Assembly (NCBI GenBank): GCA_029210545.1
Contig: JARGFV010000045.1
Span: 1-18,831, forward strand
Source of the DNA: a bacterium
Lineage (GTDB): Bacteria; BMS3Abin14
DNA length: 18,831 nucleotides
Direction: 5' to 3'
The translations under genes were made by a program, and so were the position numbers. Below are positions 313 through 16,303 of the stretch, piece after piece. The number at the start of each line of letters is the position of its first letter. Positions within the stretch are counted from its first letter, which is position 1. The notes under the pieces were generated by a model. That model saw nothing but the letters and a program-made list of their open reading frames with translations. It was not told the DNA's origin and searched no databases.

Positions 313-417
313 GTTAACAGTGAACAGTGAATAGTATACGGTATAATTCAAAGGTCATAAATCACGAAGGTCATTAACCACGGTTGACTGTCAACCGTGA
401 ACCGTAAACTGTAAACT
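313..417. repeat. Two degenerate heptanucleotide tandem tracts
   Basis: Positions 313-347 are five consecutive 7-mers (GTTAACA, GTGAACA, GTGAATA, GTATACG, GTATAAT). Positions 390-417 are four more (GTCAACC, GTGAACC, GTAAACT, GTAAACT). A small palindrome (CGGTTGAC t GTCAACCG, 381-397) joins the second tract. The region lies between the Spy-like gene and mtaB and contains no gene. Confidence 0.85.
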
Positions 418-420
418 TCT

Positions 421-1065
421 CTATCTCCTCCCGCCGCCGCCTGGGCCACCGGGCCCGCCACCGGAACCGCTGCCGGAACCACCGTCCGATCCACCGCCGG
501 AGCTTCCCGAAGAGCCGCCGCCGACACTGCCGTCTCCGGGTCCGGCACGCTCATCCATACCATCGCCGGTCCTGCGCCGCTCCTGGAACGCTTCGGCGGC
601 TTTCTGCTTCATCTCCCTTTCGAACCTCAGCGTAAACATCAGGTACCGCGCCGTGCCGACGGGGTCCAGAATCTGGCGCACCCGCTTGATGTGGCGTTCT
701 TCGGCCTGGACCATCTCCCTGCGGTTGGCTGTCAGTTCGTCTAGGATCTCATCGATCCTTGCCGGTCCGGACCCCTCACCCGCGACCTCACGGGCCAACT
801 CTCTCACCAGTTCCCTGTTGCGGGTCTCGATCAGCTGGCGCTCCTGGTCCGCCTCCCGCATCGCGGGGAAAAGGCGGGCGCTCGTCTCCTCGTCGAGATT
901 GAGCTCCTCCGTGAGCTGCCACGCCCTTAACGCCTCCACCTTCTTGCGCACCCTCGTCAGATCCCCTTCTTCGGCCATCTCCCGGGCGGAGACCGGGAGA
1001 GCAGGGACAAGAAGTGAAAGACCCAGTATTAAAGCTGTCAGAGATATCCACATTTTTCCGATCAT
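421..1065 (-). CDS. Spy/CpxP-like periplasmic protein with Gly/Ser-rich tail
   Basis: The 214-residue product has a signal peptide (hydrophobic stretch 8-25, likely cleavage after ALPVSA at residue 27). A charged all-helical middle (about 30-160) follows, of the kind seen in Spy/CpxP and periplasmic heavy-metal sensor proteins, which bind unfolded proteins or damp envelope-stress signalling. The last roughly 45 residues are almost only Gly, Ser, Pro and Asp, ending in GGGGRR. The gene is third in an operon with an ECF sigma factor and its anti-sigma, starting 4 nt after the anti-sigma stop with a GAGG ribosome binding site. Family assignment rests on size, export and helix pattern plus context. 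I see no exact LTxxQ signature. The Gly-rich tail could be a flexible linker or surface anchor; its function is unknown. Confidence 0.75.
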   Translation of the reverse strand: MIGKMWISLTALILGLSLLVPALPVSAREMAEEGDLTRVRKKVEALRAWQLTEELNLDEETSARLFPAMREADQERQLIETRNRELVRELAREVAGEGSGPARIDEILDELTANRREMVQAEERHIKRVRQILDPVGTARYLMFTLRFEREMKQKAAEAFQERRRTGDGMDERAGPGDGSVGGGSSGSSGGGSDGGSGSGSGGGPGGPGGGGRR

Positions 1066-1069
1066 GACA

Positions 1070-1651
1070 TCACCCTCTTTCCACCTGGTTCAGAGTCATT
1101 TCATCAATCAGTCCCTCGAAGACCCTGATGGTCTCGGGGGACATGGTTTCCAGAAGTTCCCGGTCGAAAAGGGATCCCAGCGGATCACCGGTATCCCGCT
1201 CCGGTGATGAAACGATCCCAGCGTCAAGAAATCCATCGATGAACGCCACCTCGGAACCCGAAAGGAACAGGATTTCCTCCTCCAGGCCAAGGGAGAGCGC
1301 CGCCGGGGAGCTGTAAGTCCCAAGGTCGCCGTTTGGGGAACGCTCCGTTCCGGTTCTGAGGAAAAGGGACAGTCCGGCGACAAGGATGAGAGCGGCGATC
1401 CCGCCGGCCCAGACCGGCCTTGCCATGGTCCACGCGGGCCGGGATCGGCCCTCTTCCGTGACCCTGGCCGGAAGGGAGGCCCAGAATGAGGCGGGTGGTT
1501 CCGGGACGGAACTGTCCATCGATGCCAGGATCTGAAGTTCCTTCGAGCATTCCGGGCACCCGGCTGCGTGGCGGTTGATCGTCTCCATCTCTTCCGGCGC
1601 GAGGCTTTTCCGGTAATATTCGGGCAGCAGTTCCCTGGGACAGCTGTTCAC
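1070..1651 (-). CDS. Zinc-finger anti-sigma factor, membrane anchored
   Basis: The 193-residue product carries a putative zinc-finger motif H28-x3-C32-x2-C35 near its N-terminus, as in zf-HC2 (ZAS) anti-sigma factors that hold a cognate ECF sigma factor at the membrane. One transmembrane helix (about 80-98, WAGGIAALILVAGLSLFL) separates the cytoplasmic finger from a roughly 95-residue acidic periplasmic part with no recognised domain. The start is GTG; it overlaps the TGA of the upstream sigma gene as GTGA, which indicates translational coupling and a fixed sigma:anti-sigma ratio. A Spy-like periplasmic gene follows directly. The inferred role is to release the sigma factor on an envelope signal. 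Confidence 0.88.
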   Translation of the reverse strand: MNSCPRELLPEYYRKSLAPEEMETINRHAAGCPECSKELQILASMDSSVPEPPASFWASLPARVTEEGRSRPAWTMARPVWAGGIAALILVAGLSLFLRTGTERSPNGDLGTYSSPAALSLGLEEEILFLSGSEVAFIDGFLDAGIVSSPERDTGDPLGSLFDRELLETMSPETIRVFEGLIDEMTLNQVERG

Positions 1652-2196
1652 TGTCTTTCTCCTTTCAGGATCGCCTTGAGCTTGCCCACGGCGTGGTGGT
1701 AGCTCGCCTTTGCGGCCCCGGTGGAACAGTTCATGATCCTGGCGACCTCGTCGAAGGAGCAGCCCTCCGCGGTCCTGAGGACCAGCGCCTGCCGCTGCCT
1801 GGGGGGCAGTGTTTTCACGGCAGCCGCCAGCATCGCCCGCTCCTGGCTCTGGACGGCATCATCGAGCGGATCGCGGCCCGAGGAGAGCGGCAGCGCATCC
1901 AGGGGAACCGTTCTTCTCCTGGACCGGTCCCTGATGGTGTTTTTCCACGTGTTGGAGGCGATCCTGAAAAGCCACGTTTTAAAGGAGGAGTCGCCCCTGA
2001 ACCGCCCGATAGACCGGTAGGCTTTGACAAAAGCGCTCTGTGTGATCTCCATGGCGTCGTCCACGTTCCCCGATAACCTGTAAAGGTACCCGTACAGCTG
2101 TCTCTGGTGCATCCTGACGAGGTTCTCGAAAGCGGCCTCGTCGCCCTTCCTGGCCCTGGCCACCAGTTCCTGTTCGAGTCTGCCGTCGTCGCTCAT
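1648..2196 (-). CDS. ECF-type RNA polymerase sigma factor (sigma-70 family, RpoE-like)
   Basis: The 182-residue product has the two-domain ECF layout. Sigma region 2 (about residues 15-85) contains YGYLYRLSGNVDDAMEITQS and the FKTWLFRIASN core, and region 4 (about 125-180) contains LPPRQRQALVLR and the helix-turn-helix SFDEVARIMNCSTGAAKASY. ATG 2196 (MSDDGRLEQELV) is preferred. The frame is open upstream to a TTG at 2262, but those 22 codons do not look like sigma-factor sequence. Neither start has a strong ribosome binding site. It is the first gene of a three-gene operon with its anti-sigma and a Spy-like protein, so it probably drives an envelope-stress regulon and its own operon. I could not identify an ECF-type promoter upstream. 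Confidence 0.92.
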   Translation of the reverse strand: MSDDGRLEQELVARARKGDEAAFENLVRMHQRQLYGYLYRLSGNVDDAMEITQSAFVKAYRSIGRFRGDSSFKTWLFRIASNTWKNTIRDRSRRRTVPLDALPLSSGRDPLDDAVQSQERAMLAAAVKTLPPRQRQALVLRTAEGCSFDEVARIMNCSTGAAKASYHHAVGKLKAILKGERQ

Positions 2197-2285
2197 TTCA
2201 TCGCTGTTCCCGGCAGCGTACCGTAAGATCTCTCCACGCTGCTTGATATATGGACACCACAAGCAAGTAAAAGGTTTAAAGGGTG

Positions 2286-2347
2286 GAGTTCACAGTTCAT
2301 AGTGAAGAGCGCATTTTCGGTAAGCTGTAAACTGTCTACTGTTTACT
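2286..2347. repeat. Heptanucleotide tandem tracts between mnmA and the sigma gene
   Basis: Units of exactly 7 bp are seen at 2286-2306 (GAGTTCA, CAGTTCA, TAGTGAA) and at 2320-2347 (GTAAGCT, GTAAACT, GTCTACT, GTTTACT). The mnmA stop codon (2336-2338) lies inside the second tract, so the last codons of mnmA (SKQ) are repeat-derived. The remainder of 2197-2335 shows no gene. Confidence 0.85.
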
Positions 2348-3457
2348 CGGAGCCATGGGCTCCGTTATCCACCCGCCTCCCAGGACATACTCCCCATCGT
2401 ACACCACCACCGCCTGGCCCGGGGCCACGCCATGCTGGGGCTCGTCGAAAATGACGTCCACAGACCCGTCCCCGTTGACCGTAACGGTCGAGGGCGCCGG
2501 CGTGTGGCGGTGGCGGATCTGGACGGACGCCGTGAACCTTTCTCCCGGCGGATGCCCTTCGATCCAGGTGGAACCGGAAGCTTTCAGTCCCGGAAAAGCG
2601 GATTCCGCCCGTTTCCCGACCACCACCGTGTTGGTTGCCCCGTCGATGCGCATCACGTAAAGGGGTTCTGGAGCTGCGATGCCAAGCCCTTTCCGCTGGC
2701 CCACGGTGTAAAAACAGGCTCCTTCGTGGGTACCCAGTTCGTTCCCCCCGGTATCGACCACCTTCCCCGGGCCTGGCAGGTTGGCCCCCTTCTCCCGGAT
2801 GAAATCCCGAAGTCCCCCGTCTGGAACAAAGCAGATCTCCTGGCTTTCAGCCTTCGCGTGAACCGGAAGCCCGAAAGCTTCGGCTTTCCGTCGGACCAGA
2901 TCTTTTTTCATGTTCCCCAGGGGGAAAAGGAGACGTGCCAATTCCTTCTGACGGAGGGTAAACAGGAAGTAGCTCTGGTCCTTTCGGTCGTCGGCTCCCC
3001 TGGCAAGTCTCCACGGGTTCTTTCCCACAATGCGCGCGTAGTGGCCCGTGGCCAGCAGGTCGGCTCCCACTCCCCTGGCCTTGCGAATGAGGTGACGGAA
3101 CTTCAGATGCTCGTTGCACCGGATGCACGGGTTGGGGGTGCGGCCGGCGAGGTAGGTGTCCACGAAGGGCCTAACGACGTCGGAGAGGAACTCGGCCTGC
3201 AGGTCCAGGGTGTAGTGGGCAATGCCCAGCTTGCTGCAGACGGACCGGGCGTCGTTGAGGTGGACCGTGCCGCAGCACCCCTCCTCGGCCCCGGGAACGT
3301 CCTCGGGCCACAGGAGCATGGTGACCCCAACCACGCGGTACCCCTGTTCCTGGAGGACGGCCGCGGCCACGGAGGAGTCCACGCCGCCGGACATGGCGAC
3401 CAGGACGGTGATGTCCCGGGGTTTCACCTTCCGGGTTCCGGGTTCCAGGTTGGTCAT
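2336..3457 (-). CDS. mnmA: tRNA-specific 2-thiouridylase MnmA
   Basis: This enzyme adds sulfur to C2 of wobble U34 in Glu, Gln and Lys tRNAs, using ATP and a persulfide relay. The 373-residue product has the PP-loop SGGVDSS (23-29), the catalytic cysteine in NPCIRCNEHLKF (C111) and the second cysteine in ESQEICFV (C209). It also has the DDRKDQSYFL tRNA-binding segment and VGQRKGLG. ATG 3457 is used; a TTG at 3463 is also in frame. The first roughly 10 residues after 3457 (TNLEPGTRK) are encoded by a heptad repeat (3431-3451), so GTG 3427 (VKPRDITVLV), preceded by GGAA, may be the ancestral start. nifU lies upstream on the same strand, a common pairing because both depend on cysteine desulfurase sulfur. 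No iscS is seen here. Confidence 0.97.
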   Translation of the reverse strand: MTNLEPGTRKVKPRDITVLVAMSGGVDSSVAAAVLQEQGYRVVGVTMLLWPEDVPGAEEGCCGTVHLNDARSVCSKLGIAHYTLDLQAEFLSDVVRPFVDTYLAGRTPNPCIRCNEHLKFRHLIRKARGVGADLLATGHYARIVGKNPWRLARGADDRKDQSYFLFTLRQKELARLLFPLGNMKKDLVRRKAEAFGLPVHAKAESQEICFVPDGGLRDFIREKGANLPGPGKVVDTGGNELGTHEGACFYTVGQRKGLGIAAPEPLYVMRIDGATNTVVVGKRAESAFPGLKASGSTWIEGHPPGERFTASVQIRHRHTPAPSTVTVNGDGSVDVIFDEPQHGVAPGQAVVVYDGEYVLGGGWITEPMAPSKQ

Positions 3458-3623
3458 GAACAATCAGATAGCAGAACGGGGGGGGAAAGAACAGGGTCCA
3501 GAGTCCAGGGTCCGGAGTCCAAAGTCCAGAGAGACGGCTGACAGGCGGTTCACGGTCCATGTTTCACGGTTCACGGTTCACGCTTCACGGATCACATTTC
3601 ACGCTTCACGGTTCACTTCCCAT
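3431..3623. repeat. Three heptanucleotide tracts in the nifU-mnmA gap
   Basis: 3431-3451 holds CCGGGTT, CCGGGTT, CCAGGTT. 3495-3529 holds GGTCCAG, AGTCCAG, GGTCCGG, AGTCCAA, AGTCCAG. 3547-3623 holds eleven units in unbroken register: GGTTCAC four times, GCTTCAC twice, and single variants GGTCCAT, GTTTCAC, GGATCAC, ATTTCAC and TTCCCAT. The three tracts use unrelated units. The first extends into the mnmA 5' end and the third contains the nifU stop codon (3613-3615). Confidence 0.92.
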
Positions 3624-3990
3624 GTTTTTCCCTGTAATCCTTGATCGCGTCGTGCAGGGCGTCGGCCGCCAGGTTGGAGCAGTGCATCTTGTTGGGCGGA
3701 AGGCCGTCGAGGGCCTCGGCCACGGCCTTGTTGCTGACCGCTTCGGCCTCCCCTAACGTCTTGCCCATGACCATCTCGGTGACCATGCTGCTCGTGGCGA
3801 TGGCGCTGCCGCAGCCGAAGGTCTGGAACTTCACGTCCTTGATGACATCATCTTCCACCTTGATGTAGATCTTCATGATGTCGCCGCACGAGGCGTTCCC
3901 CACCTCGCCGATACCGTCGGCGTCCTCGATCTCGCCCACGTTGCGGGGGTTGCGGAAGTGGTCCATGACCTTTTCGCTGTACATGCTCAT
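3613..3990 (-). CDS. nifU: Fe-S cluster assembly scaffold protein NifU/IscU
   Basis: The 125-residue product is a stand-alone IscU-type scaffold on which [2Fe-2S] and [4Fe-4S] clusters are built from desulfurase sulfur before transfer to apoproteins. The three cluster cysteines are present: C35 in GNASCGD, C60 in FGCGSAIA and C104 in KMHCSNLA. The aspartate after C35, important for cluster release in the family, is also there. It begins MSMYSEKVMDHFRNPRNVG, typical of bacterial NifU N-domains, and it lacks the NFU and ferredoxin domains of nitrogen-fixation NifU. It is followed on the same strand by mnmA after a 155-bp gap filled with heptad repeats. The stop codon and terminal residues fall in the repeat tract. 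No cysteine desulfurase gene lies immediately upstream, where it would be expected. Confidence 0.95.
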   Translation of the reverse strand: MSMYSEKVMDHFRNPRNVGEIEDADGIGEVGNASCGDIMKIYIKVEDDVIKDVKFQTFGCGSAIATSSMVTEMVMGKTLGEAEAVSNKAVAEALDGLPPNKMHCSNLAADALHDAIKDYREKHGK

Positions 3991-4000
3991 TTGAATACCT

Positions 4001-4028
4001 CAATTTCAAAATTCAGATTTCATATTTC
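4001..4028. repeat. AT-rich heptanucleotide tract upstream of nifU
   Basis: Four 7-mers in register: CAATTTC, AAAATTC, AGATTTC, ATATTTC. The tract lies in the nifU leader. A TTGACA-like hexamer (minus strand, 4041-4036) sits just beyond it, but no matching -10 box at the right spacing is clear. Confidence 0.75.
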
Positions 4029-4137
4029 AAGTCAATGTCAACTCACAAAATATAACCAATATTCTTGAAAATGAAACCCGCTGAATTCATGATGTTATCA
4101 CCTAAGTAAAGCGGAACTGCATTCGGCAGTATAGGTT

Positions 4138-4421
4138 CGTTGAAATTTGATGGACTCGCAAAAAGTCCATCAACGCACCCCGCGCGGGGTGCCCAAATCA
4201 ATGACAAGCCGCGCCTGGGAAGGGCGCCCGGATCGATGACCGATGAAAGCAGCCGCGCCTGGGAGAGGCGCCCGGATCGAGTGCCAATGGCTGTGTGTTC
4301 GATCCGTGAGGGAACCGAAAACCACGCTTTTCGGTTCCCGTTGAGCCAAAGTCTTACCCGGACTTTGGCGATATTACAGCAGCCCCCGTGAGGAAAGGGA
4401 AAACCACGCTTTTCCCTTTCC
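4138..4421 (+). repeat. Composite hairpin-array element, copy 1
   Basis: This roughly 280-bp gap is almost entirely perfect inverted repeats, with no gene. In order: a 10-bp stem at 4147-4156/4164-4173 with loop CGCAAAA, an 18-bp palindrome at 4175-4192, a CCAAATCAATGAC box (4193-4205), and a 29-nt direct repeat (4208-4236 and 4252-4280). Next come a 7-bp stem at 4274-4280/4299-4305, a 12-bp stem at 4310-4321/4328-4339 with loop CCACGC, a 9-bp stem at 4345-4353/4361-4369 with loop TTACCCG, and a 12-bp stem at 4392-4403/4410-4421, again with loop CCACGC. The first, second, third and last modules recur in the same order on the opposite strand at 7170-7293. No T-tract follows any stem, so these are not simple terminators. 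Confidence 0.85.
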
Positions 4422-4509
4422 GATGAAGAAGGCTTTTGTTTGGTGCCTTTTAGCTGTGTGTCAGCATTTCACCTCTTCCTTCTTCCTTCTCATAAAGTGA
4501 GGAGCTCCC

Positions 4510-5088
4510 ATGAAAAAGCGATCGATCAAACCCTCCACCGTCCTTTCCCCTGTACCGGCTGCACTCGTGACCTGCCAGGACCGTGGAGGCCGCAGCAATA
4601 TCATCACCATCGCATGGACCGGCGTTGTATGCTCCGATCCGCCCATGGTGAGTATCAGCATCCGTCCCTCCCGTTACAGCCACGGGATCATCAAGGAGAC
4701 CGGCGAGTTCGTGGTCAACATCCCTCCTTCAAGGATCGTACGGGAGGTTGACAGCTGCGGGATCGTATCGGGCAGGAAGGTAGACAAGTTCGCCGAAACG
4801 GGTTTGACACCCACACCCGCCAGCATCGTGTCCCCTCCCCTCATCGACGAATGCACGGTGAGCCTCGAGTGCCGCGTGACCGAGATCGTTCCCCTTGGGG
4901 TCCACGACATGTTCCTGGGAGAGATCGTGGCCACCCACATTGCCGAGGAGGCCTTCGACGCCGATGGGAACCTGGACATGGCCCTCATCGACCCCCTCGG
5001 ATATTGCCCTCTGGACCAAACCTACAGGGCTGTAAGCGGTGACGCACTGGGGAGTTACGGGTACAGCAGAAAAGCTGGAAGCGATTAG
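4510..5088 (+). CDS. Flavin reductase-like FMN-binding protein (flavoredoxin type)
   Basis: The 192-residue product has the split-barrel flavin reductase fold that binds FMN. KPSTVLSPVPAALVTCQDRGGRSNIITIAWTG aligns with the N-terminal strand and the FMN-binding loop (Asn30-Ile31-Ile32-Thr33), and SISIRPSRYSHGIIKETGEFVVNIP with the second strand pair and the helix that follows. Homologues include flavoredoxins of sulfate reducers, which shuttle electrons in sulfur metabolism, and NAD(P)H:flavin oxidoreductases. The exact partner cannot be read from the sequence. ATG 4510 is preceded by a strong GAGGAG site. The gene stands alone between two intergenic repeat regions, is transcribed opposite to its neighbours, and ends with a hairpin at 5118. 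Its last codons (AGSD and the stop) lie in a heptad tract. Confidence 0.88.
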   Translation: MKKRSIKPSTVLSPVPAALVTCQDRGGRSNIITIAWTGVVCSDPPMVSISIRPSRYSHGIIKETGEFVVNIPPSRIVREVDSCGIVSGRKVDKFAETGLTPTPASIVSPPLIDECTVSLECRVTEIVPLGVHDMFLGEIVATHIAEEAFDADGNLDMALIDPLGYCPLDQTYRAVSGDALGSYGYSRKAGSD

Positions 5089-5106
5089 CTTTCAGCTTAG
5101 AACTGG
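5072..5106. repeat. Heptanucleotide tract over the flavoredoxin stop codon
   Basis: Five 7-mers in register: AAGCTGG, AAGCGAT, TAGCTTT, CAGCTTA, GAACTGG. The TAG stop (5086-5088) is inside the tract. Confidence 0.75.
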
Positions 5107-5117
5107 GAAGTCACGTA

Positions 5118-5140
5118 CCCCCGGCAAAGCCGGGGGGTTT
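5118..5140 (+). terminator. Hairpin terminator after the flavoredoxin gene (candidate)
   Basis: A perfect 8-bp GC stem (CCCCCGGC 5118-5125 with GCCGGGGG 5129-5136, loop AAA) is followed by G and TTT. The T-tract is short, so termination may be partial. Confidence 0.5.
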
Positions 5141-5161
5141 CCCGAAGCACTTAAGAGCTGG

Positions 5162-5217
5162 GGTCTGGAGTCCGTACTATCTTGTCCACTTTGGATTTTG
5201 GACATTGCACTTTGGAC
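5162..5217. repeat. Heptanucleotide tract overlapping the YgjP-like 3' end
   Basis: Eight 7-mers in register, among them TTTGGAT, TTTGGAC, ATTGCAC and TTTGGAC (5190-5217). The tract encodes the last dozen or so residues of the YgjP-like protein, including its stop at 5177-5179. Confidence 0.85.
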
Positions 5218-5770
5218 TGTTCTTCGCCCACTCCGGCACAACCTTCATCCCCCCCCTGACTGCTCTTCCGAGAGCTCTGCAATCAGGCTCAACGGTTTCC
5301 AGCATTGCCCAGAAGTCCCGTGAGTGGTTCGGGTAAACCGTGTGGCACAATTCGTGGTGAAGGACGTAACGCACAAGATCCGGTTCCAGAAACAGGAGCC
5401 TGAAATTGAGACTGATCGTACCTGTAGTCGAGCAGCTTCCCCACCGCGTCCTCTGGCCCCGGATGGTCACCTTTTGATAGGAAAGGCCAGAGATCTCGGC
5501 GAGTTCGGCGATCCATGGAACCAGGGACTCCTTCGCTGCCCTGCCAAGCCATCTGAGCAGAGCCTTCCGGACGGCCGGTTCGTCTGCCGTGTTCCCCGAC
5601 ACAACCAGGGTCCCGTTTCCGTTGCACCTTGCCTGGACGGTTGGACTGGCCGTCGGGTGGTAATGGACCGGCCATTCCTCCTCCAGTGCGGGACAGTGGA
5701 TCGATTCGGGCAGAAGAACCTTTTCCCGCTCCACAGCAAACTTTCTCATATATCGTCTAAAACGGTTCAA
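5177..5770 (-). CDS. YgjP/DUF45-type zinc metallopeptidase (M48-like)
   Basis: The product (197 residues from TTG 5770) matches the YgjP-like metallopeptidase domain. The RTRWGSC motif lies at about residues 107-113. The zinc site is H139-E140-L-C-H143, with a third ligand H149 in the NHSRDFW motif; the glutamate is the expected catalytic base. Substrates of this family are not established; some members sit beside restriction or nucleic-acid genes. TTG 5770 is chosen because GGAG precedes it by 5 nt; ATG 5749 is the alternative. The frame is open to 5860, but those codons overlap a heptad tract and the mscS-type 3' end, so they are unlikely to be translated. The C-terminal tail (NSPKCNVQNPKWTR) is encoded by a heptad tract rather than conserved sequence. 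Confidence 0.85.
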   Translation of the reverse strand: MNRFRRYMRKFAVEREKVLLPESIHCPALEEEWPVHYHPTASPTVQARCNGNGTLVVSGNTADEPAVRKALLRWLGRAAKESLVPWIAELAEISGLSYQKVTIRGQRTRWGSCSTTGTISLNFRLLFLEPDLVRYVLHHELCHTVYPNHSRDFWAMLETVEPDCRALGRAVRGGMKVVPEWAKNSPKCNVQNPKWTR

Positions 5771-5772
5771 GG

Positions 5773-5814
5773 AAGCTCCGGAAGTAGGCTGCAGGCTTTC
5801 AGCTGTCAGCTCGA
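5773..5814. repeat. Heptanucleotide tract between the mscS-type and YgjP-like genes
   Basis: Six 7-mers in register: AAGCTCC, GGAAGTA, GGCTGCA, GGCTTTC, AGCTGTC, AGCTCGA. It fills the short space between the mscS-type stop (5817) and the YgjP-like start. Confidence 0.8.
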
Positions 5815-5816
5815 CA

Positions 5817-6871
5817 TTATTTCTCAATGAATAAGGTCTGGGTGGGATAGGCAAACTCAATCCCTTGTTCCCCTAATTTCCTGAACAGGCTCAGATTGAT
5901 TGTCTGCTGGATGTCCCGGTAAAGGTTGTAGTCCCGGTCCAGCACCCAGTAGACAACCTCGAAATCCAGGGAATAGGCCCCGAAACCGGCAAAATGGGCC
6001 GGTCGAACCGGACCTGATCCATGTTCCCGATGATCTCCCGGATCATGTCAGGGATCCTTTCCAGTTTCTCCACCCCTGTCTGATAGGTCACACCGACATT
6101 GAAGAGGATCCGTCTCTCGTCCATTCGCCGGTAGTTCCTGATCCGGCTCCCGAGAAGGTCGGTGTTGGAAAAGATGATCTGTTCGCCGGAAAAGCTCCTG
6201 ACTCTTGTCGTCTTGAGCCCGACATGCTCCACAGTCCACATCTGTTCACCAACGATGATATAGTCACCGATGACGAAGGGCCGGTCCAGGACGATGGAAA
6301 GGGATGCGAAAAGATCACCCAGGATATTCTGTAAGGCAAGGGCCACAGCGATACCCGAGATGCCAAGGCCCGCCACCAGGGCGGTGATCTCGATGCCCAG
6401 GTTGTTGAGAGCAAGCAGGACCACGATGATCCAGAGGGAGGCCTTGGCCATCCAGGTGATCACCGAGTAGGCCTCCAGGTTCAACCTTTCTCCACTGTCA
6501 CTTGCGGCCCTTCTGCTCACCAGGAAGTTGATGACACCGTTGCCCCATATACCCAACTGAACCGCGATGCATAGAAAAGCGACAGATCGCGTCACCTACC
6601 CGATAGTGACCGGAAGAACAAGAACTGTGGACCCCCCGTAAAGGGAAAGGCCGGCCATGAGGACCCGTCGGGTCCTGACCTTGAGGAGATCGGCAACACG
6701 GTCATCAAAACTGTTCCGGGTGCTTTTTGAAAACCTTTCGAGTCTGCTCCCCGCAACTTTAAGCAACAGGGCGATGAGCAGATAAATAATGACCGCCGTT
6801 CCCAGCGAGGCCGCCCAGTTCGCGAGGGAGTTTCCGAGATAAAGCCTTTCAAAAAATCCGGTTGAGATCAT
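5817..6871 (-). pseudogene. Small-conductance mechanosensitive channel (MscS family), two lesions
   Basis: Joined across its lesions, this reads as an MscS-family channel of about 351 residues. It has several N-terminal hydrophobic helices, then the pore helix and beta domain (NNLGIEITALVAGLGISGIA, ALQNILGDLFASLSI, RPFVIGDYIIV), and a C-terminal part ending GIEFAYPTQTLFIEK. Lesion 1 is an in-frame TAG at 6596-6598 in the N-terminal membrane part; the frame continues unchanged past it. Lesion 2 is a -1 frameshift near 5996-6002: after DQVRFDR the frame must move by one base to read HFAGFGAYSLDFEVVYW. A missing G in a GGGCCC run explains it. The start is ATG 6871, or TTG 6877 with GGGG just upstream. 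If both lesions are real the gene is dead. A pore fragment could start at GTG 6595, but it would lack the C-terminal domain. Confidence 0.85.
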
Positions 6872-7103
6872 GATCAATAGTCCCCTTTGCGTTGGATCTG
6901 GAATTTTTCAGGGCGAACCAGGAGCCTGTCGGAGAACCTGCGCACGCAGCTGTAGACTTTTTGCGAATTCCTGAAGTATTGGCCATTTCCACTGAGCCGT
7001 CAAGGGAAGGTTCTTCACAGGGAAGGTTCTTCACCCCAGAATCGCGATTGGTTTTATTTTCGCGATTCTGGGGATAAAAAAACCTTGTTGGCGCGGTAAG
7101 TTA
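6872..7103. repeat. Non-coding gap with direct repeat and long hairpin
   Basis: No gene is seen. A 15-nt unit (GGGAAGGTTCTTCAC) occurs twice at 7004-7018 and 7020-7034. It is followed by a perfect 14-bp stem (7034-7047 with 7060-7073) with a 12-nt T-rich loop. GACTTTTTGCGA at about 6955-6966 matches the terminal motif of the neighbouring hairpin element. An adenine run follows the stem on the plus strand, so in neither direction is this a standard terminator for a gene ending here. Confidence 0.7.
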
Positions 7104-7432: not shown

Positions 7433-7433
7433 G

Positions 7434-7531: not shown

Positions 7532-9547
7532 TTGTCCCAACAAACGTCCCATCTGTCCAGGATCCTGGATTTTGTGGGCAAGATCGACAACAGGTCACTT
7601 CATTACGCCTTTACAGGTCTGATCCTGGGGATCTTTGCCCCCCTGGGCTGGATCGTCCTGGAACTCCTCCTGACGTCCCATGAAGAAATTTCCTTTTTAG
7701 CACTTCTTCGCCAGATCCTCATCGGTACCCCCCGAAGCGGCTTCATGCTCCTTTACATGTTCTTCGGCACTTCGATCATCATGGGGATCTTCGGATTCAT
7801 GGTGGGCCGAAAGGACTTTAGGCTCATCAGCGAACAAAAGCGGATGTCCGAGACCCACAAGCTTTTCCTGGCAAAGGAGGAGATGTTCGAGCAGAGGCTC
7901 TTCACCCTCCACAGGAGGATGAAAGGCATCACCCAGGTCAGCGCTGCCATTCAGCGTTCGGGTAAAATTGACGAGGTGTTCAAACTTTGCGCGGACGGCA
8001 TCAGCGAGGTCCTCGATTTCGACAGGGTCAACATCTTCCGGGCCAACCACAAGAACAGAATGCTCGAATGCGTGGAGACGCGCGGCAACCTCGAAGAACC
8101 GATCGAGAACATCAGGATCCCCATGAGCGAAGCCGGCGGGATCATCTGGCTTGCCCTTAAGGAGGACAAACCTTACGTCATCAAGGATATGAGTGAAATG
8201 AAGCCGGAATACCGCCTGCACTCTCCCTATGACAAGATCAAGGCCATTCGAAGCGTCTCCTTCATGCTTATCCCATTCCACGACGGAAAAGAGGCTGTCG
8301 GTCTTTTTGCGGTGGACAACAAGTTCAAGAAATCTCCCATCAACGATGAAGAGGTGGACATCATCAAGGTCCTGGCCGATCAGACATCGGTAGCCATATC
8401 CAACATCCGTCTCATCCATGGCATCCGGCGGATGGATGATCTCATGGAGCAGGCGTTCACCACGATCAAGGCCAAGCGCGACAGGTACTCCAGTGAACTC
8501 CAGAAGCTGGCCGATTCGATCACCCGGCTTCGCGAATCGGCCGATTCCCTGACGGCCGACGCGGAACAGATCCTTGCCTCCGCCGACGAGGGGAACAGCA
8601 CGGCAAAGGAACTCGACAGCACCGGTGCCCGGATCACCCTGAACATGGATGAACTCATGGGCTCCATGGGCCAGGTGGCGGTGGTCGCACGCTCCATGCA
8701 GGAGGTGCTGGAGGAGATCAGGGCCCGTTCGGAAGAATCCGCCAAAGCCGATGAACTGACCAACCGGCAGGTTGCCGAGGGGATCCAAATCTTTCACGAT
8801 ACACGGGAAGGTATCAAGTCCCTGGAAAAGGTCACCGGCGATTTCAGGATGACCGTGGACGATCTCCGGCTGAGGTCGGATACTGTTAAGAACACGATCC
8901 AGATCATCGACGAGGTCATGGACCAGACAAAGCTCCTGGCACTGAACGCCTCCATCATAGCGGCCCAGGCGGGTTCCCAGGGGAGAAGTTTTGCGGTCGT
9001 CGCCGAGGAGATCAAGAAACTTTCGATGGGTGTTGAAGAGTCCACCGGGTCGATCCGTGACGCCATGAACGGGTTTGAAAAGGACATCGAGACCGTCATG
9101 GAGGGAACGGGAAAGATCCAGAAGGCCGTGAGTTCGGCTGTTGAAAACACCGGGAAGGTGGAAGACGTATTCAACAGGATAGACGACAGTTTCCGGCATT
9201 CCCGGGAGATCAGTCTCCTCATCCGGGATGAAACTGCCAGGCAGGGGGACGCCGCCGTCAGCGTGGTCGAGACGGCCGACAGCGTGCACAAGGTGGCCAC
9301 CGCCCTCAAGGAGGGCGCCGACAAGCAGAAGGAAAAGACCGGGGTTATCTCGGCGTCTGCGGACAGCATGACCCAGATCAGCTACCGCCTGTCCCAGACG
9401 GCAAAGGTCAACCAGGACGGCAGCCGGACCCTGATGCTGACGGTGAACGAATCCGAGCAGGTGTTCGAGACATTGTTTGTAAGTTTGCAGGAGTGGAGGG
9501 AACTCGGAAAAGAATTGCTGAAGGAATTAGAAACCTTCGGGGTTTAG
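7532..9547 (+). CDS. Methyl-accepting chemotaxis-type receptor with GAF domain
   Basis: The 671-residue product has two N-terminal membrane helices (about 24-47 and 71-91) with almost no periplasmic domain between them. A short coiled linker, a cytoplasmic GAF domain (about 137-297) and a long MCP signalling coiled coil follow. The hairpin tip is clear at about 463-497 (DQTKLLALNASIIAAQAGSQGRSFAVVAEEIKKLS), where CheA and CheW bind. There is no HAMP domain. Sensing is therefore probably cytoplasmic, through the GAF domain, rather than of external ligands. The start is TTG 7532: AGGAGGT (7519-7525) stands 6 nt upstream, which outweighs the TTG at 7508 and the ATG at 7514. It stands alone with no chemotaxis genes nearby. 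A weak hairpin after the stop may terminate it. Confidence 0.93.
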   Translation: MSQQTSHLSRILDFVGKIDNRSLHYAFTGLILGIFAPLGWIVLELLLTSHEEISFLALLRQILIGTPRSGFMLLYMFFGTSIIMGIFGFMVGRKDFRLISEQKRMSETHKLFLAKEEMFEQRLFTLHRRMKGITQVSAAIQRSGKIDEVFKLCADGISEVLDFDRVNIFRANHKNRMLECVETRGNLEEPIENIRIPMSEAGGIIWLALKEDKPYVIKDMSEMKPEYRLHSPYDKIKAIRSVSFMLIPFHDGKEAVGLFAVDNKFKKSPINDEEVDIIKVLADQTSVAISNIRLIHGIRRMDDLMEQAFTTIKAKRDRYSSELQKLADSITRLRESADSLTADAEQILASADEGNSTAKELDSTGARITLNMDELMGSMGQVAVVARSMQEVLEEIRARSEESAKADELTNRQVAEGIQIFHDTREGIKSLEKVTGDFRMTVDDLRLRSDTVKNTIQIIDEVMDQTKLLALNASIIAAQAGSQGRSFAVVAEEIKKLSMGVEESTGSIRDAMNGFEKDIETVMEGTGKIQKAVSSAVENTGKVEDVFNRIDDSFRHSREISLLIRDETARQGDAAVSVVETADSVHKVATALKEGADKQKEKTGVISASADSMTQISYRLSQTAKVNQDGSRTLMLTVNESEQVFETLFVSLQEWRELGKELLKELETFGV

Positions 9548-9558
9548 CAATTCCTGGC

Positions 9559-9607
9559 AGTACGAAGTACGGAGTGCGAAGTGCGAAGGAAAAGCTAACA
9601 GCTAATA
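9559..9607. repeat. Heptanucleotide tract after the chemoreceptor gene
   Basis: Seven 7-mers in register: AGTACGA, AGTACGG, AGTGCGA, AGTGCGA, AGGAAAA, GCTAACA, GCTAATA. It begins 12 bp after the stop codon. The unit changes partway from AGTGCGA type to GCTAACA type without loss of register. Confidence 0.9.
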
Positions 9608-9620
9608 ACCATGGCCGATG

Positions 9621-10240: not shown

Positions 10241-10245
10241 AACTG

Positions 10246-10301
10246 CAGTCCAATGTCCAAAGAGAATATAATTACCTTCCACTTTCCACTTTTAACTATT
10301 T
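10246..10301. repeat. Heptanucleotide tract between der and the YprB-like gene
   Basis: Eight 7-mers: CAGTCCA, ATGTCCA, AAGAGAA, TATAATT, ACCTTCC, ACTTTCC, ACTTTTA, ACTATTT. The central two are degenerate. The der stop codon (10296-10298) is in the last unit. Confidence 0.75.
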
Positions 10302-11621: not shown

Positions 11622-11711
11622 GGCTTTTGCTCCTGAGTATTTGTTCCATCCGGTTAATGCTTACCTGGGTGGCTTCACTCCAAAGCTCTGAAATAGACTC
11701 TTTGAGACATT

Positions 11712-12914
11712 TTACGAGTCGGACAGGCTCCTGGTGAGGGAATTTTGCAGTTGCTGGAGGCTTTCCCCCGTCAGAGATTCGACAGCCTGCAGCGGAGCCT
11801 TGCCGTCGGTGAGCTCGGACACGAAAAGCTGGATGAAGTTACGGCCGTACCTGCCCTCGAGGTGATCCATGAAAAGAAGGCTCACAGCGTAGGACCGCAT
11901 GCGGTGTTCCGGGTCCATGGTGATGAAGCTCCGGTCAAGATCGTCCAGGTTGATGGCATACCCTTTTCCCATTTCCCGGACCATGTAAGCCCGCACCGCC
12001 TGGATGTGGTCGGGAGACTGGTTTTCGCCGACTTTCTGTGCCAGTCCTTCCTGGACCCACGACGGCAGGTTGCCAGCGGCCCGATGAAGGAGGGCATGGA
12101 CCATTTCGTGCCTAACTGTAAGGGCCAGTTTATTCCTGTCATCAATGCCCTGACCGACGTACAGGCGGATCTGCCCATCATACAGACCTTCCAGAGAGGG
12201 TTCGAAGGGATCGGCGCGCGATCCGAGTTCCTCGGTTAAAACAAGAACATCCACCGGATCTGCCGGGAAGATCCCCAGGGCCGCTGTCAGGGAATCCATT
12301 TCGTCCTGGAGTAAAGCGAGGATCTCACCTTCATATTCGAGCTTTCTCTGCCCGCTGTAATGCAGGCGGAAATTATCCCCGTCCTCCGTGACCATCCCCT
12401 CCCTGGACGCTACCATTCCCTCAAGGCGGCTGACATGTTCGGCGAGGTCCGCCCTGTCGGGCATCCTTCTATATAATTTACGTGCGTACTCTAACGCCTC
12501 TTCGTATCGTCCGGCCCGGAAGTGCAGTGTCGAAAAGCCGTCGAGAACCTCCGGGTTAACCGGCCACAACTCTTCCGATTCAGTCAAAAGTTCCAGGGCT
12601 TTTTCCCTGTCATCGAGGGATCCCCCCGCGATCCGGGCAAGGGCAACGCTGAGGTTTCTCCTCACCAAGGCGTTCCCCGGTTCCAGCCCCACGGCCTCCC
12701 GAAGCGTTTGAACTGCCTGCACCGGGTTCCCGGAAGCAAGCTCCTCGACACCCCGTGCGTTCAGTTCCAACGCCGGATGACCATTTGTCACATTTGACAC
12801 AAACGTGTCCAATGGCAGATCGATTGGGATACCACCGAAAACGATGATCGCACCCACGGCCATAGCCGGCAAAATGAGAAGGGCCAGGACGTTCCTCAAC
12901 TGTTCTCCTTTCAC
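11712..12914 (-). CDS. TPR-containing MA-family zinc metallopeptidase, membrane anchored
   Basis: The 400-residue product begins with a hydrophobic helix (about 9-29) that serves as a signal anchor or signal peptide, so the rest is exported. TPR-like helices cover about 45-165 (ARGVEELASGNPVQAVQTLREAVGLEPGN and RAGRYEEALEYARKLYRRMP). A gluzincin-type peptidase domain follows: HEMVH at 269-273 with the downstream third-ligand glutamate E289 in WVQEGLAQ, the pattern of the Peptidase_MA-like group. The substrate is unknown. The start is GTG 12914, overlapping the TGA of the upstream nuclease gene as GTGA, so the two are translationally coupled. The TPR part may recruit protein partners in the periplasm; that is inference. 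Confidence 0.85.
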   Translation of the reverse strand: MKGEQLRNVLALLILPAMAVGAIIVFGGIPIDLPLDTFVSNVTNGHPALELNARGVEELASGNPVQAVQTLREAVGLEPGNALVRRNLSVALARIAGGSLDDREKALELLTESEELWPVNPEVLDGFSTLHFRAGRYEEALEYARKLYRRMPDRADLAEHVSRLEGMVASREGMVTEDGDNFRLHYSGQRKLEYEGEILALLQDEMDSLTAALGIFPADPVDVLVLTEELGSRADPFEPSLEGLYDGQIRLYVGQGIDDRNKLALTVRHEMVHALLHRAAGNLPSWVQEGLAQKVGENQSPDHIQAVRAYMVREMGKGYAINLDDLDRSFITMDPEHRMRSYAVSLLFMDHLEGRYGRNFIQLFVSELTDGKAPLQAVESLTGESLQQLQNSLTRSLSDS

Positions 12915-13705
12915 CTGGATCCTGTCGGTGAACCACTGACAGGGTCCGGATTCAGTACAAGGATCTGATCGGGCCCGCGAAGGATGATCTCCGGTCCGTT
13001 ATATCGCTTCACCTTGCCGATGACCAGAACTTCGGCTCCCACCAGATCGCCCGGGTCGATGTCAAACTCCCTGAACCTGCTGCGTCCCTCATCGAAAAGC
13101 ACCGCGGTAAAATCGGTCCTGTAATCCTCGCCGAAATTCAGGTGCCACGCTTTGCGCCCCCTGTGCAGCGCAAGGACCTTCCCACGGACCATGACGCGGC
13201 TTCCGATATGATCATCAGCATCCAGATGAGACACCACCTTGATGGCTTCACCGCTATACAGCCCCTTTCCGTTCTTTGCCGCGATGGAGGCGTTTCGAAG
13301 GATCTCGTCGGATATTTCTGATCCACAAGGTGGAATGAGGAGCGGAAGAGCCACGCCCTCCCGGATGAGAGCCACGTTCACATTGACGTCGTCGGCCCGC
13401 ACGACAGAGAGGAGTCGTCCGTATGGATCGGTATCCCTGCAGCTGATAAGCTCCAGAGGGTTGGAGCCGATGAGTTTTTCCAGCATGGCCGAAGCTTCGT
13501 CGGCCATGGACTCCCCTCTTTCGGGGGTGTCGATACCAAGGAGCCGCACTCGCTGACCGCTCTCAAGTTCCAGGGTGTCTCCATCCACCACACGCTTGAC
13601 CACGGCGGTTGAACACACCACTCCTGCGTCCGCAGCCAGCGAGGAGGTTGCCGATGCGAGTATAAAAAGAGATGCTGCACCGGCCCTGAGCATTTGTGCT
13701 ATCAT
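12911..13705 (-). CDS. Secreted thermonuclease-like protein (SNase fold) with C-terminal OB-like domain
   Basis: The 264-residue product has a signal peptide (hydrophobic 8-24, likely cleavage near SLAA). A staphylococcal-nuclease domain (about 32-155) follows with its active-site set visible: D41 in DGDT, R54 and D59 in RLLGIDTPE, E62, and R97 in YGR. About 95 further residues (about 168-255: SRVMVRGKVLALHRGRKAWHLN and GKVKRYNGPEIIL) look like a nucleic-acid-binding OB fold. ATG 13705 is used; no strong ribosome binding site precedes it. Stop and start of the next gene overlap (GTGA). An exported nuclease coupled to an exported TPR peptidase suggests joint action on macromolecules outside the cytoplasm, but no system of this pair is known to me. 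Confidence 0.88.
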   Translation of the reverse strand: MIAQMLRAGAASLFILASATSSLAADAGVVCSTAVVKRVVDGDTLELESGQRVRLLGIDTPERGESMADEASAMLEKLIGSNPLELISCRDTDPYGRLLSVVRADDVNVNVALIREGVALPLLIPPCGSEISDEILRNASIAAKNGKGLYSGEAIKVVSHLDADDHIGSRVMVRGKVLALHRGRKAWHLNFGEDYRTDFTAVLFDEGRSRFREFDIDPGDLVGAEVLVIGKVKRYNGPEIILRGPDQILVLNPDPVSGSPTGSR

Positions 13706-13810
13706 AATTGAGCAGGACCTTTTCCTTTAAACCGTCTTCAGTCACTGAGCTTATTCACTGAGGTACCCGCGAGGTATCGGCACGTCGGCGAAGCTGATGA
13801 GGAACCAGCC
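13706..13810. promoter_or_regulatory. Divergent intergenic region
   Basis: The only divergent gap between the secreted nuclease gene (left) and the thioredoxin-like gene (right) must hold promoters in both directions. Short direct repeats are visible (TCACTGAG at 13742-13749 and again at 13756-13763, and GAGGTA twice near 13761 and 13772). No convincing -35/-10 pair was found on either strand. Confidence 0.35.
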
Positions 13811-15097
13811 ATGAATATAAGATTAAATACCTGTATAAGTGTCCTTTTACTTATACTCCTGCCGGCTGGAGGCTTCGCCCAGGACAAGAGGGATGGATCT
13901 CCCGTTCCGGGAGCGCCTCTGGAAGTGGGATCTCAAGCTCCGGTTTTTACCCTGAACGATATCCAAGGAGCTGTTTTCGGCCTCACCGGCCAGATCGGAC
14001 GTTCGGCGACCGTTCTGAGCTTCTGGTCGATCTACTGCGATTCCTGTGTCGACGAGATGCTGGCCCTCCAGAAACTCGAGGATAAGTACCGGGGGCAGGA
14101 CCTCGTGATCATGGCTGTCAACGAGGACCTCCAGGTAACGACAGACCGGATCCGCCGGTTCCTCGAAAGACTGGAAAAGTTCCGTGGAAAGATAACATAT
14201 CCCCTTCTTTATGACGAGAACGCTAAAGTGTTCAACGCTTTCGGCGTCACCTCTCTTCCCACTCTCATACTCATTGACCGGGAGGGGAAAATCGCGGGTT
14301 ATCATCGGGGTTTTGACACGGAAGGTGAGAGGAACCTCCTTTCAATCATCGAGGATCTGGCTTCGGGAAAGACGGACACGAAGGTTTCCGCACCGCGTAT
14401 TGTTGAAAGAAGCGAAATGATCACTGTCGTGGGTAAAGCCGCGCTGTGCGGATTCTTCGACGAAAGCGGTTGGCGGAAAAGCTTTACCGGAAATGAAAGC
14501 CTGGAGCAGGAGACGGTGCTGACCCGCGACCTTGCGCAAAGAGACGCAACAAGGATCGCGGTCTCCGGAGCCCTTCGCATGCTCGGGATCAACCTTTTTG
14601 CCAACGATTCTGCTACAGATTGTCTTGCTGGTGACGGGATCCATCTGGATCGTGACCCCTTCGACACAAAAGATTCCCTGAGCAAGCTCCTGTCCAGCCT
14701 CAGCTACAGTGATTTTTTCGAGACTGTCGCTGAACAGGAGATGCTCATTGACGGCACCTGGTATGTCAGTCGGGACGTCAGGATATCGATCGACAGTTTG
14801 TCGGCGGAGCTAAAAAGCATAGGTTACCTGTTTGAGCCGTTCCGTATAACCTTCACCTATGTGAACATGAGTCTCCTTGACCAGAAGCAGTTCCTCCATT
14901 CGCTTCTCGTGCAGTCCCGGTTCATCGGACGGTTCGAAAATCCGGTTTTCACTCCTCACTCCACCTCCCAGGTTTTCGAGGTTTACACTTCCTCCCAAGG
15001 GTTCTCCGACGAGATCCTCGGGATGGATTTCGGGAAACTCCGGGTGTTCGTAGAGGAAGTGACGCCTACGTCTTTGGAATTAGAAGTGTGGAAGTAG
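13811..15097 (+). CDS. TlpA-like thioredoxin-fold protein with unrecognised C-terminal region
   Basis: The 428-residue product has a signal peptide (hydrophobic 8-22, likely cleavage at GGFAQ) and a TlpA/AhpC-type thioredoxin fold (about 36-188). The active site is C76-D-S-C79 in FWSIYCDSCVDEM and the cis-proline is in TSLPTLILID. Such domains reduce or oxidise periplasmic disulfides. Residues from about 190 to 428 match nothing I recognise. They are rich in beta-strand-like segments (FRITFTYVNMSLL, FGKLRVFVEEV) and contain two further cysteines (in ALCGFF and TDCLAG). A good AGGAA site precedes ATG 13811. The gene is monocistronic: divergent from its left neighbour and closed by a strong terminator shared with ruvB. 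The C-terminal part may be the partner-binding module; this is inference. Confidence 0.85.
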   Translation: MNIRLNTCISVLLLILLPAGGFAQDKRDGSPVPGAPLEVGSQAPVFTLNDIQGAVFGLTGQIGRSATVLSFWSIYCDSCVDEMLALQKLEDKYRGQDLVIMAVNEDLQVTTDRIRRFLERLEKFRGKITYPLLYDENAKVFNAFGVTSLPTLILIDREGKIAGYHRGFDTEGERNLLSIIEDLASGKTDTKVSAPRIVERSEMITVVGKAALCGFFDESGWRKSFTGNESLEQETVLTRDLAQRDATRIAVSGALRMLGINLFANDSATDCLAGDGIHLDRDPFDTKDSLSKLLSSLSYSDFFETVAEQEMLIDGTWYVSRDVRISIDSLSAELKSIGYLFEPFRITFTYVNMSLLDQKQFLHSLLVQSRFIGRFENPVFTPHSTSQVFEVYTSSQGFSDEILGMDFGKLRVFVEEVTPTSLELEVWK

Positions 15098-15098
15098 G

Positions 15099-15142
15099 AG
15101 TGACCCACTCCCCGGCCTGAAGGCCAGGGCTTCAGGGTCACT
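15099..15142 (+). repeat. Nested palindrome after the thioredoxin-like gene
   Basis: AGTGACCC (15099-15106) pairs with GGGTCACT (15135-15142). Inside it CCTGAAG (15116-15122) pairs with CTTCAGG (15130-15136). The two stems compete for two G residues. It starts directly after the stop codon and has no T-tract. Confidence 0.6.
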
Positions 15143-15150
15143 GGCAGTAG

Positions 15151-15190
15151 AAAACAAAACCGGAGCATTAGCTCCGGTTTTGTTTTTTCT
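15151..15190. terminator. Bidirectional Rho-independent terminator
   Basis: A perfect 16-bp stem (15151-15166 with 15171-15186, loop ATTA) is followed on the plus strand by further T residues. The minus strand reads a T-rich sequence into and after the stem as well. It separates the convergent thioredoxin-like gene and ruvB and probably ends both transcripts. Confidence 0.88.
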
Positions 15191-15191
15191 T

Positions 15192-15219
15192 CTGCACCCT
15201 GCACTTTGCACTCTGCACT
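15192..15219. repeat. Heptanucleotide tract downstream of ruvB
   Basis: Four 7-mers in perfect register: CTGCACC, CTGCACT, TTGCACT, CTGCACT. It ends exactly where the 20-bp inverted copy of a ruvB segment begins. Confidence 0.85.
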
Positions 15220-15341
15220 CAGCGAACTCCTCGTGGTCGCCCTCAATCGAACAGTTTCTCCTGCCCGCCTTCAGTTCCGGGCTTTCTGTCGAGATGTCTG
15301 TAGGCAGCCTCTGTCGCAGTACGACCACGAGGAGTTCGCTG
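15220..15341. repeat. 20-bp perfect inverted repeat at the ruvB 3' end
   Basis: Positions 15220-15239 are the exact reverse complement of 15322-15341. The right arm lies within ruvB and encodes the conserved QRTPRGR motif. The left arm lies after the ruvB stop codon (15243-15245). The transcript could form a long-range hairpin with an 82-nt loop that contains the end of the coding region. Confidence 0.85.
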
Positions 15342-16271
15342 CAGATACCCTTCCTGGAGAAGGAACGGCTCGCAGATGTCCTCAATGGTGTCCCTCTCCT
15401 CCCCCACAGCGGCGGAAATCGTATCGATACCAACAGGCCCGCCACCGAACTTGTCAATGATCGTCAGCAGAACGGATCGATCCAGGTTGTCGAGCCCCAT
15501 CTCGTCGATCTCCAGCCTCTTCAGTGTGTGACGCGCCACCTCGAGGGTGATAACCCCTTCGGCCTCAACCTGGGCGAAATCCCGTGCCCGTCTCAAAAGC
15601 CGGTTGACAACCCTGGGTGTCCCCCTTGAGCGCCTCGCCAGCTCATCGGCGGCATCGTCAACCAGTTTCACCTGCAGGATCGCGGCCGCCCTGGTAACGA
15701 TCCGGTTAAGCTCCTGAACCGAGTAAAACTCAAGCCTGCACACGACGCCGAAACGGTCCCTGAAGGGCGATGACAAAAGGCCCATGCGCGTTGTGGCGCC
15801 CATGAGGGTGAACCGCGGCAGGTCCAGCTTGACTGTCCTTGCGCCGGGGCCCTTGCCGATAATGAGATCCAGGGCAAAGTCTTCCATGGCCGGATAAAGG
15901 ACCTCTTCGACAGTACGGTTCATGCGATGGATCTCGTCGATGAAGAGGACACCGTGCTCGTCGAGGTTGGTGAGGATGGCAGCGAGATCTCCGGAGCGCT
16001 CCATGGCAGGACCGGAGGTGGATCTGATGTTGACGCCAAGTTCGTTGGCAAGGATGTTGGCCAGGGTCGTTTTGCCCAATCCGGGCGGTCCGAAGAGCAG
16101 GACGTGATCCAGCGCCTCCTTGCGTTCCAGAGCGGCCTGAATGAAGACCTTCAGGTTTTCCTTGACCTTGGTCTGGCCGACATAGTCAGAAAGGCGCCTC
16201 GGCCGGATATTGGCCTCGAAAGCAGCTTCATCGTTGATCTGCCGGGGAGTTACGATGCGTTCATCGGTCAT
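15243..16271 (-). CDS. ruvB: Holliday junction branch migration ATPase RuvB
   Basis: RuvB hexamers, loaded by RuvA, drive branch migration of recombination intermediates. The 342-residue product shows Walker [10 protein letters not shown] (61-69), Walker B with DEIHR (112-116), the sensor GATTRMG and the arginine-rich lid segment [19 protein letters not shown]. The C-terminal winged-helix part contains [17 protein letters not shown] and [17 protein letters not shown]. The protein ends about 20 residues beyond the usual YRHL ([15 protein letters not shown]), which is within the range of the family. ATG 16271 ([13 protein letters not shown]) is chosen over the in-frame start at 16316, whose extra codons overlap a heptad tract and ruvA. 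It is the last gene of yebC-ruvC-ruvA-ruvB. Confidence 0.98.
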
Positions 16272-16275
16272 AACC

Positions 16276-16303
16276 GAATTCCAAATTTGAATTTTAAAAT
16301 TAC
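16276..16303. repeat. AT-rich heptanucleotide tract between ruvA and ruvB
   Basis: Four 7-mers: GAATTCC, AAATTTG, AATTTTA, AAATTAC. The ruvA stop codon (16300-16302) is inside it and the ruvB start is 5 bp beyond its left end. Confidence 0.65.

Follow-up and report, generated by a model that had tools for sequence, protein, structure and literature searches.

Intergenic DNA in the 18,831-bp window that we analyzed (contig JARGFV010000045.1 of the bacterial assembly GCA_029210545.1, lineage BMS3Abin14) carries tandem arrays of 7-bp units. Across this genome and its family such arrays have one period and many unit sequences (words), and, though not in every genome, they are accompanied by a nearby reverse-complement array more often than controls allow. 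The tracts belong to a published class, the heptameric simple sequence repeats (SSRs). Direct replication slippage plus fold-back template switching is the best account of their anatomy, though not of the step size of 7, and we give this reading about an even chance of being right. Our statements on the window's own genome cover 0.41 Mb of 2.72 Mb, plus pattern searches across the whole genome; period statistics come from 399 kb on other contigs of the same assembly, and 12 members of the family were sampled for comparison (genomes are cited by G numbers and loci by L numbers).

Intergenic identity in the window was 0.320 at lag 7 (n = 2702) compared with 0.24–0.28 at lags 4–6 and 8–13, with echoes at lags 14, 21, and 28; coding DNA was flat (0.249 at lag 7). 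Using a rule of at least 17 matches in 21 positions, we detected eight lag-7 tracts in the window, of which seven lay entirely within intergenic DNA; lags 4–6 and 8–11 had none. Tandem Repeats Finder served as a second, independent detector of the main tracts. The 399-kb sample contained 66 lag-7 tracts (166 per Mb), whereas 0, 5, 18, and 4 tracts were found at lags 5, 6, 8, and 9, and no more than five at each of lags 4, 5, 6, 9, 10, 11, and 13. Neighbouring lags thus ranged from 0 to 13 per Mb, except for lag 8 (45 per Mb), where the tracts form a second, G-rich class. These 8-bp arrays have G-rich words of their own (GACACGGR, TCCCCGCG, and GAGGGGGC; L021:2594-2635, L031:6989-7067, L038:6704-6779, and L044, L049, and L050 of G001). 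Lag-7 identity in G000 and G001 was 0.293–0.337 in intergenic and 0.253–0.262 in coding DNA, and a lag-7 excess was present in all 12 family members, lowest in G009 (36 per Mb) and highest in G001 (336 per Mb), with 0–4 per Mb at control lags. The strict period reported in a preliminary description of the window, made from its letters alone, is therefore strong, lag-specific, and confined to intergenic DNA, and it recurs in the sampled part of the genome. Head-to-tail 7-nt units beyond chance and concentration in intergenic DNA are the two features that place the tracts among the heptameric SSRs.

The arrays use many words. The 72 tracts of the own genome contained 48 distinct units (69 expected for random intergenic heptamers), and the 74 tracts of G001 contained 25 (null 70). 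Ten units were common to the own genome and G001 (null mean 1.3, maximum 6), nine to the own genome and G011 (null 1.3, maximum 5), and 13 to G003 and G008 (null 1.4, maximum 5); Cyanobacteria shared no units with the family beyond chance. The units had been described as unrelated, and this is only partly right, since the words, though many, come from a small list shared by the family. The argument that a fixed period with free sequence makes a sequence-specific binding protein unlikely held up better: there is no common motif among the many words, and near relatives differ in word within the same gap. A binding site of one protein, or iterons, was ruled out because 72 tracts with 48 distinct units have no common word, and caution is needed before each word is taken for a regulator-binding site. 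We also note that 75 stretches of viral contigs contain the GTTCACN pattern.

The idea that arrays face their reverse complements arose from a comparison of gaps between G003 and G011. When pairing was first tested with tract consensus units, the signal was weak, because partners often comprise just two or three units. A clear signal was obtained when the reverse complement of each array was locally aligned to 200 bp on both sides (cut-off score ≥13) and compared with four controls, namely the array itself (direct), its reverse, its complement, and the flanks of other arrays from that genome (swapped). Inverted, direct, and swapped partners were found for 23%, 9%, and 5% of own-genome arrays, with 20 of 87 arrays paired against 4.2 expected (p < 0.0005, permutation). 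The corresponding values were 26, 0, and 7% in G003, 34, 4, and 8% in G011, and 52, 7, and 5% in G008, and inverted pairing in genus g4 ranged from 26 to 52%. Random intergenic 28-mers had an inverted partner in 1–6% of cases, and swapped-flank controls overall gave ~5–23%.

Pairing was also common outside the family, among 120 loci that were retrieved with the GTTCACN pattern and whose array density is biased by that choice. Specifically, inverted and direct partners accounted for 51% vs. 3% in Cyanobacteria, 50% vs. 0% in Acidobacteria, 67% vs. 8% in Gemmatimonadota, 44% vs. 11% in Chloroflexota, and 29% vs. 0% in the delta group; arrays with words other than GTTCACN were paired as well in most of the sampled phyla. 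The permutation test reached p < 0.0005 in G003, G011, G008, Cyanobacteria, and the set of Acidobacteria, Gemmatimonadota, and Chloroflexota, as in the own genome. Word sharing is excluded as the cause of pairing by the swapped-flank controls, and simple direct slippage does not predict inverted partners. Replication slippage could still be the only process, with pairing secondary or due to shared words. Slippage is the published general explanation of heptameric SSRs (Mrazek 2007, cited in PMC4692102 and PMC4679880), and this reading would agree with the GTTCACN arrays of the own genome and G003, where adjacent seventh bases are mostly equal; considering the controls, we nonetheless find it very unlikely. 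The longest perfect arrays occurred in G003, with ~11 identical GTTCACG units.

With regard to the anatomy of the pairs, the loop between the arms had a median of ~42 bp (80% within 8–121), and the arms agreed at 83% of ordinary positions and at 48% in the most variable column, where independence would give 33%. The loops were mostly unique in our sample and no more recurrent than other intergenic DNA in G003, G008, G011, and G000, which argues against an origin of the pairs by copying of a single mobile element. It could still be that the arrays are fragments of dispersed mobile or composite repeats that copy around the genome. This would be consistent with G001, whose arrays lie within composite repeats with conserved flank words (GACCGCC / GTGATTN.. 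/ CGAAAAGAC) and have direct partners in 46% of cases, and with one loop common to three pairs of G003. However, similarity between own-genome arrays stops at the array (e.g., at 387-418 of the window), which refutes this origin there as a general account, and we regard it overall as distinctly unlikely. A mobile element in the own genome was ruled out, given that no flanks were common to its arrays and their loops were mostly unique. Several blocks of heptamers and octamers, along with conserved spacer words, make up the composite repeats of G001, which also contain the motifs GATTGCTTCACGCGGG..CGCAATGACA and CCTGCCCTGAGCCTGTCGAAGGG (e.g., L043:7451-7750, L044 ~12400-13190, and L045:15419-17676).

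Alternatively, slippage may make direct arrays while complementary arms are retained by selection because they form hairpins in RNA or DNA (as transcript ends, for mRNA stability, or as cruciforms), a possibility that we consider unlikely. Unit-specific inverted pairs in many phyla would fit such selection, as would the GGGAATC repeats of Xanthomonas, which usually keep their paired or single state between species and are mostly transcribed (PMC4692102). However, a T-run followed the right arm in just 9 of 110 pairs and an A-run preceded the left arm in 11 of 110, and gene orientation was near background with no strong preference for convergent gaps (rough counts, because sample genes were called with a crude longest-open-reading-frame scheme); intrinsic terminators were ruled out on these grounds. 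Furthermore, pairing alone does not require tandem repeats, and the replacement of all units of both arms at ~93% flank identity would be fast for compensatory point changes.

Such replacement was seen between G003 and G011, whose flanking DNA is mostly 88–96% identical. Among the 27 non-aligning gaps, 12 contained arrays in G003 and 14 in G011, and the words differed in at least 8 of the 10 gaps with arrays in both species. In two gaps with pairs in both, the two arms had changed word together (GAAGGAR vs. TTGGAAC; GTGAACC vs. GGATTCN). In another gap the arms retain the ACGCAGN word, whereas the 150-bp loop between them (L362:9604-9767) is reversed end to end in the relative (L351; inverted alignment 40, direct 26, shuffled maximum 20.5). 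Unit number may also change within a gap, as the CTGCGTN array upstream of iscU differs in its units between G003 and G008; most gaps are instead replaced outright. The conserved mnmA-iscU neighbourhood, which lies in our window, has heptamer arrays with differing words in the gaps of most family members and no arrays in the two array-poor genomes of genus g5.

Slippage with fold-back switching would explain these features as follows. Non-coding arrays would be made and remade by replication copying errors, one unit per event. Direct slippage would gain or lose one 7-nt unit and so produce the period of 7 and higher-order repeats of 14 and 21 bp. In fold-back (snap-back) template switching, the nascent end would pair with a nearby complementary stretch and copy that same stretch; this could create a reverse-complement array, hold both arms to the same local word, and in some cases flip the intervening DNA. 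Later point mutations would alter the word, and old arrays would decay. We infer template switching at replication as the agent because replication error is the simplest account that covers the period, the freedom of the words, the local inverted matching, the unique loops, and the flipped loop. The preliminary description knew of no named mechanism, and in this respect it needs correction: heptameric repeats are over-represented in many bacteria, and the accounts of Mrazek 2007 cited above give slippage, favoured by a polymerase contact of ~7 nt, as the proposed origin. A broader claim, that a general copying process in many phyla writes seven-base units (six fixed, one free) plus their reverse complement into intergenic gaps from a lineage word list and overwrites both arms in the time it takes close species to diverge, appears rather improbable to us.

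Several of our results weigh against slippage with fold-back switching. No inverted excess was found in Bacteroidota (22% inverted, 25% direct) or in G001, where direct partners are common, as given above. Identity within arrays drops little with distance (in long tracts from ~0.88 at lag 7 to 0.81–0.86 at lag 35), so that stepwise copying is only weakly visible. The same holds for the earlier suggestion that each unit was copied from the last, as neighbours are barely closer than distant units, although some arrays do contain clean blocks (ACCCAAA ×4, then AACCAAA ×3); these blocks and higher-order units such as CATTTTC/TATTTTC/TATTCTC speak in favour of the slippage model. In G001, G003, and G008, one column out of seven gathers more of the variation than slippage simulations give, in arrays such as GTGATTN, TGAGATN, and CTGCGTN. 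Both of two changes hit a single column in 12/35 and 7/15 cases, compared with 7–10% when simulated slippage was run through the detector used for the real arrays; the own genome showed no such excess at two events (2/25). Adjacent units in G001 avoid identity, which neither type of error predicts directly. In its GTGATTN arrays, adjacent free bases were equal in ~8 of 98 listed places, below independence (counted by eye from overlapping entries that are not independent), and one reading is that like neighbours are soon lost via slippage and unlike ones remain. The same words recur at separate places, which suggests copying between distant loci too. Array-free gaps between G003 and G011 were also often replaced (11 of 25, vs. 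11 of 16 with arrays; Fisher p = 0.2), and replacement is therefore not specific to arrays. The idea that arrays make gaps break was not supported, the difference not being significant.

A free column could also point to an enzyme dedicated to this task, be it a special polymerase, a reverse transcriptase, or a terminal transferase, that adds six templated bases and one free base per step. The six fixed columns and one free column in part of the G001, G003, and G008 arrays would agree with this, and a second Y-family polymerase is encoded by seven genomes with arrays but not by the two poorest complete genomes. However, the one-column excess is missing from the own genome, and the second Y-family polymerase is missing from the array-rich G008 (81% complete) and from G004 and G009, which nevertheless have lag-7 tracts; the candidate enzyme also remains putative. 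We consider a dedicated enzyme extremely unlikely. A causal role of the second Y-family polymerase is suggestive only, and the untemplated-like polymerase considered in the preliminary description gained no positive support. G004 and G009, which have the fewest heptamer arrays when compared with G000, G001, G003, G007, and G011, and which lack the second Y-family polymerase, encode two additional, closely spaced MutS_V proteins of ~500 aa. Loss of MutS as a cause was ruled out, as a MutS1-class match was found in most array-bearing genomes and was missing in G003 and the incomplete G002. G003 (99% complete) had only a weaker MutS2-class match.

In many bacteria no other class of long simple repeat is as abundant as the heptameric one, for whose origin a brief polymerase-footprint proposal has stood since 2007. 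Should a substantial fraction of these repeats prove to be arms of inverted pairs with a shared local word, direct slippage alone cannot be their cause, and models of bacterial intergenic evolution would need a fold-back or arm-to-arm copying step. Both public genomes and mutation-accumulation lines would allow a test of this idea.

The tracts of the window are listed in Table 1. Eight of the eleven coordinates in the preliminary description were confirmed as tracts (313, 390, 2320, 3495, 3547, 4001, 9559, and 15192); that at 10274 has 2.3 copies, that at 5190 is weak, and 5773 (AGCTGTC) was ruled out, being a short word in two copies only. Tandem Repeats Finder added short tracts at 3429 and 4474. 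None of the window arrays reached the inverted-pair cut-off of 13, and most look like single or decayed members. The best inverted partner of 307-336 (379-395) scored 11 and its direct partner 12, a pair that is ambiguous, as a GTNNAC word looks much like its complement.

Table 1 Seven-base tracts of the window, with positions counted from its first letter.
Positions	Strand	Tract	Detected by
307..336	.	AGTGAAC-type, 3.4 copies	Tandem Repeats Finder and lag rule
387..418	.	GTAAACT / GTGAACC-type, 4.4 copies	Tandem Repeats Finder and lag rule
2320..2347	.	GTAAACT-type, enters 3' end of mnmA (stop at 2336)	17/21 rule
3429..3451	.	TTCCGGG, short, 3.3 copies, within predicted 5' end of mnmA	Tandem Repeats Finder
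3492..3531	.	GTCCAGA-type; period 14 (two-unit repeat) also scores	Tandem Repeats Finder and lag rule
3546..3616	.	GGTTCAC-type, longest of the window, 10 units, up to iscU stop codon	Tandem Repeats Finder and lag rule
4002..4030	.	ATTTCAA-type, immediately upstream of iscU	Tandem Repeats Finder and lag rule
5183..5212	.	TTTGGAC-like, weak, 3' end of YgjP-like gene	Preliminary description (5190); below both detectors
9557..9589	.	AGTRCGA-type, 4.3 copies, right behind stop at 9547	Tandem Repeats Finder and lag rule
10274..10297	.	ACTTTCC, short, 2.3 perfect copies	Tandem Repeats Finder, score 32 only
15191..15223	.	CTGCACT-type, 4.3 copies, beside strong hairpin between convergent genes	Tandem Repeats Finder and lag rule

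In the YgjP-like gene (5177-5860, minus strand), a decayed heptamer tract at 5177-5212 codes for a C-terminal tail past the Pfam domain, whose last residue is 196 of 227. The hairpin that adjoins the CTGCACT tract (AAAACAAAACCGGAGC-ATTA-GCTCCGGTTTTGTTTT, 15151-15188) is near-perfect, lies between two convergent genes, and is likely a two-way terminator. Separate from the heptamer tracts, positions 4150-4422 hold a ~260-bp dispersed repeat, of which the genome sample contains many copies, partial or full, with several located at contig ends, and positions 7003-7034 hold two perfect copies of the 16-bp repeat AGGGAAGGTTCTTCAC. No match to known RNA families (Rfam) was found in the window.

Our arrays resemble the heptameric and other long SSRs of prokaryotes, as these are summarized from Mrazek et al. 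2007 in the two papers cited above, in the prominence of unit length 7, intergenic position, occurrence in many phyla, imperfect copies, and a proposed slippage origin; a 7n3 pattern in prokaryotic SSRs is also on record (PMC4060949). Those surveys count repeats, and as far as the accounts cited here go, they do not describe locus-specific words with a matching inverted partner across phyla or the turnover of words between relatives. Palindromic repeats such as repetitive extragenic palindromes and miniature inverted-repeat transposable elements are likewise intergenic inverted repeats; the own-genome arrays, in contrast, have no common core or ends and mostly unique loops. Conserved sequence that copies share past the array, which marks such elements, was absent from the own genome and present in G001.

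Among single-word systems, the heptanucleotide elements of Geobacter metallireducens (PMC2700814) are tandem heptamers within and between genes (GGACCGG, MTYCTGA), with MTYCTGA in site pairs, but that study interpreted them as families, each with its own consensus, of regulator-binding sites or regulatory RNAs. The TAACTGA direct repeats of Beggiatoaceae (PMC4679880) also form intergenic heptamer arrays with related split units; they differ in having a single word, one inverted case in 170 sets, and a position mostly directly upstream of start codons. Closest are the GGGAATC repeats of Xanthomonas (Rehm et al. 2015, PMC4692102), an intergenic seven-base unit with partly free positions (GGGANTN), a length that varies between species, and opposite-strand pairs in 70 of 186 patterns (Xcc) and 75 of 183 (Xac). 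Opposite-strand partners close by were found in our own-genome sample but, at the cut-off, for no window array. The Xanthomonas repeat, however, is one G-rich word regarded as forming G-quadruplexes, whereas the genomes studied here have tens of words each, mostly not G-rich, and the own-genome words do not fit the GGGANTN quadruplex type. The same study reports few pairs in Nostoc, whereas half of the arrays at our cyanobacterial loci (51%) were paired. The heptamer class and the slippage proposal are thus already published, as are opposite-strand pairs for one Xanthomonas word; what is new here is that pairing, measured against controls, is general over many words and several phyla, and that words and arms differ between close relatives.

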